Shown in pieces: positions 8,555 through 35,385 of a stretch of DNA of 64,000 bases. Position 1 is the first letter of the stretch. Every line of letters starts with the position of its first letter. The notes beneath the pieces were generated by a model that ran no database searches, was not told where the DNA came from, and saw nothing but the letters and a program-made list of their open reading frames with translations. Position numbers and translations under genes: made by a program. Origin of the DNA: Acidobacteria bacterium RIFCSPLOWO2_12_FULL_66_21 (GTDB lineage: Bacteria; Acidobacteriota; Vicinamibacteria; Vicinamibacterales; 2-12-FULL-66-21); contig MELC01000029.1 of NCBI GenBank assembly GCA_001767455.1, positions 38,318 through 102,317 on the forward strand, in the 5' to 3' direction.

Positions 8555-9895
8555 TCAAACCCGGCTTCTCCGGTGGGAGTCCGTCGCGGCGGCGGCGACA
8601 ATCCCGCTCAACCCGAGCACGCCAATCAGGTTCGGGAAGATCTGCAGCGCGTTCATCAGGTCGCCCCAGGCCCAGACAAGGTCCACCTTGGAAATCGCGC
8701 CCAATGGAATCAGCAGGCAGTAGGCCCAGCGGTACGGCAGGACCACCCGGCGGCCGAGCCAGTACTCGAGAAACTGTTCACCGTAGTAGGCCCAGCCGAT
8801 GAGCGTCGTGTAGCCGAAGAGGAACACGCAGAACGCGACGATGTAGCCGCCAACGACGGGGATGGCGCTGTTGAACGCCAGCGCAACCGCCGCGGTGCTC
8901 GTGGCGCGCTCGGCTGCGGGCGCGGCGAAGTCGATGACGCCGCTGAGGAGCACGGTCATCGCCGTGATCGTGGAGGTGACGAACGACACGATGAACACTT
9001 CCATCACCGCGTTCAGCCCCTGCTGCGACGGGCGATCGCTCTGCGCCGTGCCGTACGCGACCGCGGCGGTCCCGTAGCCCGCCTCGTTGGCGTACAAGCC
9101 GCGCGCCAGGCCGTAGCGCATCGCCACGAACGCCCCGAATCCCAGCGCCGAGTGCGTCGTGAACGCCTCGCGGAACACGGTCGCGAGGACGTCAGGGATG
9201 CGGCCCGCAAAGGATGCAATCACGAACAGGCCACCGGCGAGGTACAGGCCGACCTTCAGCGGCGTGAGCTTCGAGGCGGCGCGGCCGATGGACTTGATGC
9301 CGCCGATGATCACGAGCCATGTCAGCACCGCGACGACGGCGCCGGAGACCCAGGTGGGCACGCCGACCTGCGTCTTCCACACGAGTGCGATTGAGTTGGT
9401 TTGCGTGAACGGCGTCGTCGTCAGCGCCGCGACGCCGGCGACGACGGCGTACGTCATTGCCAGAAATGGGGATCGGAGGCCGTCTCGCAGGTAGTACATC
9501 GGTCCCGACTGCACGTCGTCGCCATGCGCCCGGCGGAACGTCAGGCCGAGGACCGCCTCGCTGAATTTGATCGAGGTGGCGAAGAAGCCGTAGCACCAGA
9601 TCCAGAACAGCACGCCCGGCCCGCCCGACGCGATGCCGACCGTAATGCCCGCGATGTTGCCGGTGCCGATCGTCGCCGCCAGCGCCGTCATGAACGCCTG
9701 GAACGGCGTGAGCGCGCCCGAGCCCGTGCGCGCCCGGCCGCCGAAGAACGCGCGGAGCGCCTCGCCGAACCGGCGCACCTGCACCGCGCGCAGCCGGATC
9801 GTGAGGAAGAGGCCGGTCCCGAAAAGGACGACAACCAGCACCGACTCGAACAGCAGGTCCGCGATGGAATGTACGAGACTCGCGAGTTCACTCAT
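8555..9895 (-). CDS. Sodium:alanine/glycine symporter, AGCS family
   Basis: 446 residues, the normal family size. About ten membrane segments are visible. Family landmarks are ALAATIGTGNIAGITVGIASGGPGVLFWIW near residue 70, the SGPMYYLRDGL motif, NEAGYGTAAVA in the middle, and a C-terminal GYTTLIGWAYYGEQ. These carriers import alanine or glycine with sodium across the inner membrane. The ATG at 9895 comes only a few bases after a GACTATC heptad array that would occupy its 5' leader. It lies downstream of an SDR gene on the same strand. The exact amino acid cannot be read from the sequence. Confidence 0.93.
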   Translation of the reverse strand: MSELASLVHSIADLLFESVLVVVLFGTGLFLTIRLRAVQVRRFGEALRAFFGGRARTGSGALTPFQAFMTALAATIGTGNIAGITVGIASGGPGVLFWIWCYGFFATSIKFSEAVLGLTFRRAHGDDVQSGPMYYLRDGLRSPFLAMTYAVVAGVAALTTTPFTQTNSIALVWKTQVGVPTWVSGAVVAVLTWLVIIGGIKSIGRAASKLTPLKVGLYLAGGLFVIASFAGRIPDVLATVFREAFTTHSALGFGAFVAMRYGLARGLYANEAGYGTAAVAYGTAQSDRPSQQGLNAVMEVFIVSFVTSTITAMTVLLSGVIDFAAPAAERATSTAAVALAFNSAIPVVGGYIVAFCVFLFGYTTLIGWAYYGEQFLEYWLGRRVVLPYRWAYCLLIPLGAISKVDLVWAWGDLMNALQIFPNLIGVLGLSGIVAAAATDSHRRSRV

Positions 9896-9897
9896 TT

Positions 9898-9953
9898 CAG
9901 TCGATAGTCGTTAGTCGATAGTCAAAGTCGATAGTCAAAGTCAAAGTCGAAGC
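9898..9953. repeat. Heptad array upstream of the AGCS symporter
   Basis: Plus-strand words GTCGATA and GTCGTTA alternate with six-base GTCAAA units. On the coding strand of the symporter this reads GACTATC/GACTTT, ending about three bases from the ATG. The octamer pair GTCACGCT-GTCACGGC follows at about 9959. Confidence 0.9.
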
Positions 9954-9987
9954 CAGAACGTCACGCTGTCACGGCCGCACGTGCAAC

Positions 9988-10767
9988 TCAGATATTCGAT
10001 CGTGATTGGCAGCCGTCGACGACGATGCTGGCGCCGCTGATCCAGCTGGCCTTGGAGGACGAGAGGAAGACGACGGCCGCGGCGACTTCGTCGGGGCGGC
10101 CGAAGCGGCCGAACGGCAGCTCGCGGCGGACGAACTCGGCGATGCCCTGCGGATCCGCCTGCTGCCGTTTTTGCCACGATCCGCCGGGAAACATGATCGA
10201 CCCGGGCGCGACGTTGTTGACGCGGATGTTGACCGGGGCGAGCTGCTGCGCGAGCGCCTTGGACAGGCTGATCTCCGCCGCCTTGACGGCGTTGTACGTC
10301 ATGCGGCCGCCGGTCTCGCGCCCGAAGATGGACGTGATCATCACGATGGCGCCGCCGCCGCGGGCGCGCATGTGCGGCACGGCGAGGCGCGAGGCGCGGA
10401 TGGCGGGAAACAGCGTCTCGTCGAAGGCCGCCTGCCATTCGGCGTCCGAGGTGTCGAGCAGGCCCTTGCCGCCGGCGCGGCCGACGTTGTTGACGAGAAT
10501 GTCGACCCCGCCGAACGTCTCCACCGTGCGGGCGATGACCAGCGCGACGCCGTCAGGCGTGGACACGTCCGCCTGGACGGTCGCGATCATGTTCGGCTTG
10601 CGCGCGGTGGCTTCGACCTCGAGGGCGGCTTCGGCGAGCCGCTCGGCGCCACGGGCGCAGATGCACACGCGGCAACCCTCCGCCACGAGCGCGCGCGCGC
10701 TGGCCAGGCCCAGGCCGCGGCTCGACCCGGTCACGATCGCAATCTTGTCGGTGAGTCCTAGATCCAT
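9988..10767 (-). CDS. Short-chain dehydrogenase/reductase
   Basis: 259 residues starting MDLGLTDK at ATG 10767; the open frame continues upstream through non-homologous sequence. Classical SDR features: VTGSSRGLGLA (nucleotide-binding TGxxxGxG), NNVGRAGG, Ser in MITSIFG and YNAVKAAE (catalytic Tyr/Lys), then PVNIRVNNVAPG. The N-terminus and length resemble FabG-like and 3-oxoacyl reductases. It uses NAD(P)H to reduce an unknown carbonyl. It lies between the DUF547 gene and the AGCS symporter on the same strand, but both flanks carry short tandem-repeat arrays, so a single operon is uncertain. Confidence 0.9.
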   Translation of the reverse strand: MDLGLTDKIAIVTGSSRGLGLASARALVAEGCRVCICARGAERLAEAALEVEATARKPNMIATVQADVSTPDGVALVIARTVETFGGVDILVNNVGRAGGKGLLDTSDAEWQAAFDETLFPAIRASRLAVPHMRARGGGAIVMITSIFGRETGGRMTYNAVKAAEISLSKALAQQLAPVNIRVNNVAPGSIMFPGGSWQKRQQADPQGIAEFVRRELPFGRFGRPDEVAAAVVFLSSSKASWISGASIVVDGCQSRSNI

Positions 10768-20562: not shown

Positions 20563-20620
20563 GGAGGTCTCCTGCTCTCGTGCACGATACCACGGGCGCC
20601 GGAGGCCGCGGAGAGGACGG

Positions 20621-20920
20621 GGCGCGCGGAGACGACGATCACACGGAGACGACGATCACACGGAGACACGGAGGCCACGGAGGAGCGCGGAGAAGATCAG
20701 GCGCGACGGACATCCGGGTGGTGCGGTGCCGGTCTGGCCGCGCTGTGCGCGGTAAGACGGTCAGAGATCCACAGATGCAAACACGCGAAATCTCCGAGGC
20801 GTGCTTGCATCTGTGGATCTCTGACCGTCTGTTCCGCCGGCCGAGGTCCGCCGAGGCCGGCGACCAGACCGGCACCCTCCGTGCGTCTCCGTGTCCTCCG
20901 TGCCTCCGTGTCATGTCTTT
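20621..20920 (+). repeat. Cloverleaf element, copy 1, with flanking CGGAGAC/CTCCGTG arms
   Basis: Outer stem GGTGCCGGTCTGG (20725-20737) pairs with CCAGACCGGCACC (20864-20876). Inside are hairpin 1 (CCGCGC-TGT-GCGCGG, 20738-20752), a 32-bp stem (20755-20786 with 20799-20830, 12-nt loop, one mismatch), and hairpin 3 (GCCGGCC/GGCCGGC, 20837-20861). Beyond it, CACGGAGACACGGAGG-type repeats on the left (20640-20692) mirror CTCCGTG-type repeats on the right (20877-20912). There is no ORF. It occupies the space between a minus-strand hydrolase and the plus-strand hemerythrin gene. Confidence 0.9.
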
Positions 20921-20934
20921 CTTCGTGCCCTCCG

Positions 20935-20950
20935 TATGACGAGCGTCATA
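20935..20950. promoter_or_regulatory. 16-bp palindrome before the hemerythrin-PAS gene
   Basis: TATGACG-AG-CGTCATA is perfectly symmetric apart from its two central bases. It lies 34 bp before the chosen ATG (20984), a good place for an operator. The binding protein is not known; the spacing resembles sites of dimeric regulators. Confidence 0.5.
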
Positions 20951-20983
20951 GGGCTCCGCGTCCTCCGGGCCCACAATCGAAGG

Positions 20984-26385: not shown

Positions 26386-26577
26386 AGGATGACGGGAGAT
26401 CGTCGGTGAGATCGCTGCCGGTTTTCTGAGAGAGTGACGGAAAGCCGATGAGGAGAAACGGTGCTGCGAAATTCAACGATGAGATTTGCAGCAGCAACAA
26501 GCTACAACGTAGACGGTAGACAACATGCGACAGGAGGAAGAGAGGAAAGGGAGGCTTGCACGCAGCATGCGCGAGCA

Positions 26578-26765
26578 GCCGGTCTGGCAGCGCGTCGCGC
26601 GCTGAGAGGATCTGAGATCCACAGATGCAAGCACGCCTGAGCGTTCCGCGTGTTTGCATCTGCGGATCTCAGATCCTCTCTATGCCGGCCTGGAGAATGA
26701 CCGCAGGCCGGCGCCAGACCGGCGTCCACTCCGCGCGTCTCCGTGATCTCCGTGCCTCCGTGTGA
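26578..26765 (+). repeat. Cloverleaf element, copy 2
   Basis: Outer stem GCCGGTCTGGC (26578-26588) with GCCAGACCGGC (26713-26723). Hairpin 1 CAGCGCG-TCG-CGCGCTG (26588-26604), a 32-bp stem (26605-26636 with 26648-26679, 11-nt loop), hairpin 3 GCCGGCCT/AGGCCGGC (26684-26712). The CTCCGTG tail runs from 26730. It lies in the 578-bp gene-free stretch 26260-26837 between the decaheme start and the end of the ABC permease; the rest of that stretch shows no ORF or known motif beyond the inverted repeat at 26363. Confidence 0.9.
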
Positions 26766-26837
26766 AGGTCGACACGCCTTCCCTCCTCCCCTGCTCCTGC
26801 CGATTCCTGGTCGCCCGGCCAGCGGGAGAGACGCCGA

Positions 26838-35041: not shown

Positions 35042-35186
35042 GCGGCATTCTACCCGGAACTCGAAGACTGTCACGCTGCACGCGCCGAGGGCATCGCTGC
35101 ACGAAGGGCGCCGAAGACTGTCACGCTGAACGCGCCGACGGCTTTCATTGCACGAAGGGCACGAAGACCGCCATTCTCATTGGTGC

Positions 35187-35385
35187 TGCCGGTCTGGCCG
35201 CGCTTCGCGCGGTGAGGGGGTCTGAGATCCGCAAACACAAACACGCCCGCGGTTGTCGCGTGCTTGTGTTTGTGGATCTCAGGCCCCCTCTAACGCACCT
35301 CTAACGCCGGCCCGAGGCTGCCGAGGGCCGGCGCCAGACCGGCATCAGCTCCGTGCGTCTCCGTGCCCGCCGTGCCTCCGTGTGA
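35187..35385 (+). repeat. Cloverleaf element, copy 3
   Basis: Outer stem TGCCGGTCTGG (35187-35197) with CCAGACCGGCA (35334-35344). Hairpin 1 CCGCGC-TTC-GCGCGG (35198-35212), a 33-bp stem (35214-35246 with 35258-35290, 11-nt loop), hairpin 3 GCCGGCCC/GGGCCGGC (35306-35332). A 15-bp extra segment (TAACGCACCTC and a second TAACGCC) separates the stem from hairpin 3. The CTCCGTG tail runs from 35350. It lies in the 433-bp divergent region 35042-35474, whose left part (35068-35170) repeats TGTCACGCTG and CACGAAGGGC. Confidence 0.9.

Follow-up and report, generated by a model that had tools for sequence, protein, structure and literature searches.

Cloverleaf-forming palindromic repeats in a genome of the Vicinamibacterales: probable gene-less mobile elements and their association with GxxExxY genes

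Three copies of a cloverleaf core within heptamer arms

The window, i.e., the whole 64-kb stretch of DNA that was analysed, contains three copies of a palindromic element whose neighbours are ordinary metabolic genes. A sequence-only reading had described a three-copy element that can fold into a cloverleaf, with no transposase nearby; the absence of a transposase holds within the window, and the cores were located at 20728–20873, 26578–26723 and 35188–35343, at most 3 bases away from the limits proposed there. The common plan of the copies was also borne out, each consisting of an outer stem (GCCGGTCTGG/CCAGACCGGC), a small CGCGC hairpin, a hairpin of 32–33 bp and a second, GCCGGC hairpin. 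The long stems of copies 1, 2 and 3 measure 32, 33 and 33 bp, with loops of 12, 11 and 11 nt and a complementarity of 97, 94 and 91%, respectively.

All three cores are read on the forward strand. Copy 1, which scores 135 bits with the covariance model (CM) and is included in the 22-copy alignment A1, has an outer stem at 20728–20737/20864–20873 that extends to 20725–20741/20860–20876. Its first GC hairpin (CCGCGC-TGT-GCGCGG, 20738–20752) and its second (GCCGGCC ... GGCCGGC, 20836–20861) were placed by the consensus fold, and the long hairpin at 20755–20830 is formed by arms at 20755–20786 and 20799–20830, with an A-C mismatch at 20781/20804 that corresponds to the A1 column pair 57/80. Copy 2 (CM score of 142 bits) contains its long stem at 26604–26636/26648–26680 and GC hairpins at 26588–26604 and 26684–26712. 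Copy 3 (139 bits) has the corresponding long stem at 35214–35246/35258–35290 and GC hairpins at 35198–35212 and 35306–35332.

The unit is larger than had been recognized from the sequence alone, with the core lying within concentric inverted arrays of heptamers at a spacing of 8–10 bases and the whole unit comprising ~300–370 bp of concentric inverted arms. The heptamers are CACGGAG or CACGAAG in the window's genome, and CACAGAG, CACAGAT or AACGGAG in its relatives. The entire copy 1 spans 20599–20968, with outer arms at 20599–20613/20954–20968 and inner arms composed of CACGGAG units on the left (20642–20692) and inverted CTCCGTG units on the right (20877–20927). In copy 2, CTCCGTG units form the right array (26729–26765), while the left arm at 26531–26554 is of a different, AGGAGG type and, from a reading of the sequence, resembles in inverted form a CTCCTG-type sequence at 26777–26799. 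Copy 3 is likewise chimeric, with a left array of the CACGAAG type (35151–35166) and a right array of the unlike CTCCGTG type (35349–35385). The presence of two arm types on the two sides of copies 2 and 3 (26531–26799 and 35151–35385) suggests that copies may have recombined with each other at the core.

Bare heptamer arrays are spread over the genomes of many bacterial phyla and frequently have an inverted counterpart less than 500 bp away. Loci L136–L253, from many phyla, carry inverted CACRRAG arrays with 9-base spacing, and arrays of different motifs are sometimes nested (e.g., L169). At L377 (9436–9536) the array extends into coding sequence and encodes the C-terminus of comEC (NTKNTKSTK), and at L418 an array encodes the N-terminus of a GxxExxY frame. 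Literal array sequences retrieved nothing relevant from open-access papers, to which the search was confined.

Conservation of the fold and its action as DNA or RNA

The proposal that the stems are kept while the loops differ agrees with strong covariation across copies, which supports conserved pairing. In A1, an ordinary MAFFT alignment of 22 copies, the core measures 134–156 nt and contains four helices with no conserved end tag; 22 of its 53 base pairs have changed on both sides with pairing kept, a number reached by none of 500 shuffles. Among 41 more diverged copies from several genera, double compensatory changes were observed for 45 of the 53 pairs, in an alignment that is biased towards the model, having been fitted to it; 95% of its cells are paired, in comparison to 30–44% when the partner is slid. 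Of 93 full-length copies taken from several genomes, 90 form a four-way junction on both strands when folded with DNA parameters, versus 14 of 930 dinucleotide shuffles (1.5%). Sequence drift is thus almost complete while pairing stays.

In a functional RNA, G·U pairs are expected to be much better tolerated than A·C mismatches. The numbers of G·T and A·C cells were 24 and 36 in A1, and 37 and 30 in alignment A3; because G·T is no more common than A·C, the structure appears to act as DNA rather than RNA. The pair beside the loop of the long hairpin (A1 columns 57/80) is almost never Watson–Crick in the window's genome. It is A·C or G·T in 50 of the 63 copies of A1 and A3, and A-T only once (p = 2e-7, with the copies treated as unrelated). 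Since A·C on one strand becomes G·T on the other, a mismatch marks this position whichever strand folds. The loop-side A-C/G-T mismatch is kept whichever way it is oriented with respect to the flanking hairpins; a small number of copies from other families, inspected by eye, did not show it.

A structured non-coding RNA, or an RNA processing or termination element, transcribed from intergenic regions would also be expected to show very strong compensatory changes, and the cloverleaf shape is tRNA-like. We identified copies almost exclusively in intergenic regions, which fits such a transcript as well. However, the two strands fold equally, A·C mismatches are as frequent as G·T, and the gene settings, according to gene calls made in this analysis, are mixed (45 tandem, 20 convergent and 12 divergent). 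The genes flanking the copies are mostly non-orthologous between genera, with few exceptions, so that the positions vary and a conserved regulatory position was rejected. No Rfam family reached its gathering threshold, and the matches below it were almost all eukaryotic microRNA hairpins; a known structured RNA is ruled out by this result together with the G·T/A·C counts. Based on these observations, we regard an RNA as highly improbable. Among the readings offered from the sequence alone, i.e., an RNA, a mobile DNA element acting as a cruciform, or a site of DNA processing, our analysis favors mobile DNA with a cruciform or hairpin form and disfavors RNA.

Family range, dispersal and the GxxExxY gene

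The window's genome (6.48 Mb) contains ~40 full-length copies, identified by BLAST and a covariance model built from 22 copies, and ~10 further copies with a shortened or deleted central hairpin. A covariance-model search of related genomes recovered more copies, and the absence of both further copies and covariation, which would have left three chance GC palindromes, was not observed; such chance palindromes are excluded by the copy number and the shuffles. In the short copies L086 and L088–L094, the outer stem and GC hairpins persist and the long hairpin has shrunk or disappeared, as deletion within a palindrome would predict. Throughout the family the plan is an outer stem, a small GC hairpin, a hairpin of 30–37 bp and a second GC hairpin. 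With covariance model R2, the core is present in 23 of 193 genomes of the class, distributed patchily over 21 of 104 genera, and beyond the window's genus copies occur in ~20 further genera of the same order. R2 detected no core outside the order in a sample of the phylum, which is weak evidence of absence because nine candidates were scored per genome. The cloverleaf gave five weak matches, of at most 31 bits, at 100 array-bearing loci that come mostly from other phyla.

Several pairs of copies within one genome (L079/L085, L053/L077 and L104/L106) have cores that are 94–97% identical and flanks that are unrelated, the similarity ending ~75 bp to the left and 70–150 bp to the right of the core. 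Near-identical units in unrelated surroundings indicate that the units disperse as such. At one syntenic gene boundary, genome G036 carries two cores and an intervening GxxExxY gene over 941 bp where its congener G130 has 149 bp, and the wider interval measures 1375 bp in G036 versus 241 bp in G131 and 67 bp in G026. In another genus, one copy of G004 is absent from its congener G009. Together, the unrelated flanks of nearly identical copies and their absence from syntenic congeners reveal that the elements behave as mobile units. Structured mobile DNA, as one of the readings proposed for the element, is therefore supported by the covariation, the many dispersed copies, the similar copies in unrelated flanks, and the syntenic presence and absence. 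A search for target-site duplications, which had been suggested as a check, gave no clear duplication; at the syntenic junctions no clean one was seen, with host flanks that have diverged.

The boundary occupied in G036 (L376, 9320–10180) was compared with L404, L405 and L406, and the four congeners carry arrays of differing motif at it (CACAGAT, CAGGAG, CAGGAG and GCAGAGGACAC). Given the small inverted arrays in the three congeners, this boundary may be a hot spot, or the element may have been replaced in place. Where comEC ends, arms and a GxxExxY gene are present in G130 (C21:44358-44873, L455), and G026 has only a short hairpin (C6:99747-99785, L456), which may be a remnant or an unoccupied target.

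Both sites would also be accounted for by old, immobile chromosomal palindromes, kept perfect through quasi-palindrome correction (template switching) or a role in organising the chromosome, into which GxxExxY genes have landed: all four congeners have some inverted array at the one boundary, with mostly different motifs, and a short hairpin stands where G130 has arms and gene. Template switching yields compensatory changes without selection. Nevertheless, the nearly identical copies in unrelated flanks and the congener sites without a cloverleaf argue for movement, and correction of one arm by the other would erase the loop-side mismatch that is kept in 50 of 63 copies. We consider immobile palindromes unlikely, and we are fairly confident that the window's copies belong, as members without a gene, to a family of mobile palindromic DNA elements.

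The gene between the two cores of G036 encodes a GxxExxY protein (TIGR04256, E = 7.5e-37; PF13366, E = 4.5e-34) and is located inside the inverted arrays; its frame may be truncated at the start. The clean form of the arrangement is found on contig C4 of G036, where a CACGAAG array is followed by the GxxExxY gene (9526–9924), a cloverleaf (9948–10082) and the inverted array. In G108 (L126), the cloverleaf directly follows the GxxExxY gene. A cloverleaf occurs within ~250 bp of the gene match at 6 of the 30 GxxExxY loci of the class, in two cases on both sides. Strict heptamer arrays within 250 bp were detected at 11 of 22 full-length GxxExxY loci in contrast to none of 21 Y1_Tnp loci (p = 1.8e-4). 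GxxExxY was found in 75 of 193 genomes of the class, comprising 18 of the 23 with a cloverleaf and 57 of the 170 without it (p = 6e-5, with genomes counted as independent).

The association extends beyond the class. GxxExxY genes lie inside or beside similar inverted arms in plasmid records of Bacteroides finegoldii, Gemmatirosa, Bernardetia and Sphingomonas, so that such arms are seen around GxxExxY in Bacteroidota, Gemmatimonadota and Sphingomonas. The gene of Bacteroides finegoldii is located between radA and a gene for a FAD-dependent protein, and that of Sphingomonas between fabD and fabG. Little or no arms were present at the GxxExxY loci of Treponema, Fusobacteria and Persicobacter. Inverted heptamer arms around GxxExxY, the defining trait of the class of elements proposed below, thus occur in relatives within the bacterial class and in other phyla; the copies in the window have the arms and the core and lack the gene.

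GxxExxY belongs to the PD-(D/E)XK family (TIGR04256/PF13366, PDDEXK_3), and its E, D, E and K residues are invariant (ExK). As a test of kinship to Holliday-junction resolvases or Cas4-like nucleases, the fold was modelled; a structure model of moderate quality (pLDDT 65, pTM 0.60) had PD-(D/E)XK nucleases as its best matches among solved structures, led by Cas4 SSO0001 with a weak score (E = 0.016). Profile matches to Cas4 and UPF0102 were also weak, and a PDB sequence search with the profile returned nothing. To our knowledge, the family is otherwise uncharacterised and is named by its motif alone. GxxExxY is named in two of 5.39 million open-access papers; in one of them it stands solely as the annotation of a gene next to a reverse transcriptase, which a second program had called cas4. 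No link between the family and inverted heptamer arms or mobile elements was found in the open-access literature, which bounded the search. A phage origin of the gene was rejected, as GxxExxY is absent from 50,697 phage records, has one relative in IMG/VR by pattern search and no PHROG match.

Neither the window's genome (G000), which is 100% complete by its quality score, nor G002 contains a PF13366 gene, and both have many copies of the element. GxxExxY is consequently not their present mobiliser, unless it was recently lost. At best, the copies of the window's genome are relics, or another agent has moved them; the enzyme step is weakest on this point. GxxExxY may instead be a passenger that prefers these mobile elements, with another protein as the mobilising enzyme. 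The low identity of the GxxExxY paralogues compared within G036 (~42–53%), which does not point to any recent burst of gene-bearing units, is in line with such a role. A passenger would not readily account for like arms around GxxExxY in several phyla or for the co-occurrence at the genome level, and no other gene family stood out in the flanks that were compared, a non-systematic set. We consider a passenger role less likely than not, and GxxExxY as the mover of the elements is, on the sequence evidence, a plausible lead.

Proposed mechanism and comparison with known systems

In our assessment, the best explanation, with a probability of roughly 0.6, is that the copies are gene-less (non-autonomous), small, palindromic mobile elements whose core is cut by a structure-directed nuclease, for which GxxExxY is the leading candidate. 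When a strand is unpaired during replication or by supercoiling, or when the site is extruded as a cruciform, the core would be recognized as a four-way or hairpin structure and cut by the nuclease. The excised or copied unit would then be inserted at another site, perhaps within a palindrome already present. The heptamer arrays are putative binding sites for a GxxExxY-type protein or a partner, and gene-less copies may be moved in trans or may be deletion derivatives of gene-bearing ones. More tentatively, the elements could represent a phylum-spanning mobile class, defined by heptamer arrays enclosing a lone PD-(D/E)XK gene (GxxExxY) and supplemented by the four-way core in this order. Its members would spread by nuclease cleavage of DNA secondary structure, with no transposase or recombinase of their own, and gene-less copies would litter intergenic regions across bacteria.

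A four-way junction that is kept by compensatory change and bears a recurrent loop-side mismatch would be a natural substrate for structure-specific enzymes, and the proposal offers a testable role for GxxExxY. It would also account for the inverted CACAGAG/CACGAAG arrays that stand between genes in many bacterial phyla, and of which the open-access papers searched gave no description.

Among known systems, the elements can be compared with REP/RAYT (TnpA-REP), in which the GTAG and CGTC families are single hairpins of 20–40 bp with an unpaired tetranucleotide tag, associated with a Y1 HUH transposase (PMC3733652, PMC3116915, PMC8266576). The cloverleaf family resembles REP, BIME and REPIN sequences in being composed of short, palindromic, intergenic, multi-copy repeats that are thought to be moved in trans and recognized as hairpins, and in the importance of hairpin mispairs, as REP hairpins, too, depend for their cleavage on mispaired residues at the loop edge (PMC3733652). 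It differs in having concentric arms of 300–370 bp, a four-way core, no tag, and a PD-(D/E)XK gene in relatives. TIRtrons (TIRYT), i.e., Y1 genes flanked by terminal inverted repeats that have been described in Acidobacteria (PMC3733652), share the arrangement of inverted repeats around a small gene and the dispersed copies consisting of repeats alone; their gene is a Y1 transposase, in contrast to GxxExxY.

A REP/BIME- or TIR-type element moved by a RAYT/TIRYT (Y1 HUH tyrosine transposase) would fit these likenesses, and the window's genome encodes two intact Y1_Tnp genes (L134 and L135). However, both genes are flanked by a different, GTAG REP-like repeat (GTAGCGCAGCCCTTTAGGGCTGCC-like), the Y1 loci of this genome yielded one weak cloverleaf-like CM score of 28.7 bits, and the heptamer arms are missing from all 21 Y1 loci noted above. 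Y1_Tnp is present in 18 of 23 cloverleaf genomes versus 102 of 170 others, which is not significant (p = 0.11), and the size and architecture of the elements are unlike those of REPs. The Y1_Tnp loci of the genome itself and of the class thus do not support mobilisation by RAYT, which we consider very unlikely. A similar GCAGCCCT...AGGGCTGC array is located downstream of the truncated copy L022.

No insertion sequence or transposase-bearing element sharing these ends was found, the arms being shared with GxxExxY-bearing units. Bacterial MITE-like repeats such as ERIC (RU-1) and RU-2 are likewise palindromic, gene-less mobile sequences, of 100–200 bp (PMC2759123, PMC2229807), but the present family has a conserved cloverleaf rather than one long hairpin, and no clear target duplication was seen in it. 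REP/RAYT is the nearest known kind, from which the elements depart in tag, size and Y1 association. With no description of the arms in the open-access literature that was searched, these comparisons point to an undescribed type of small mobile DNA.
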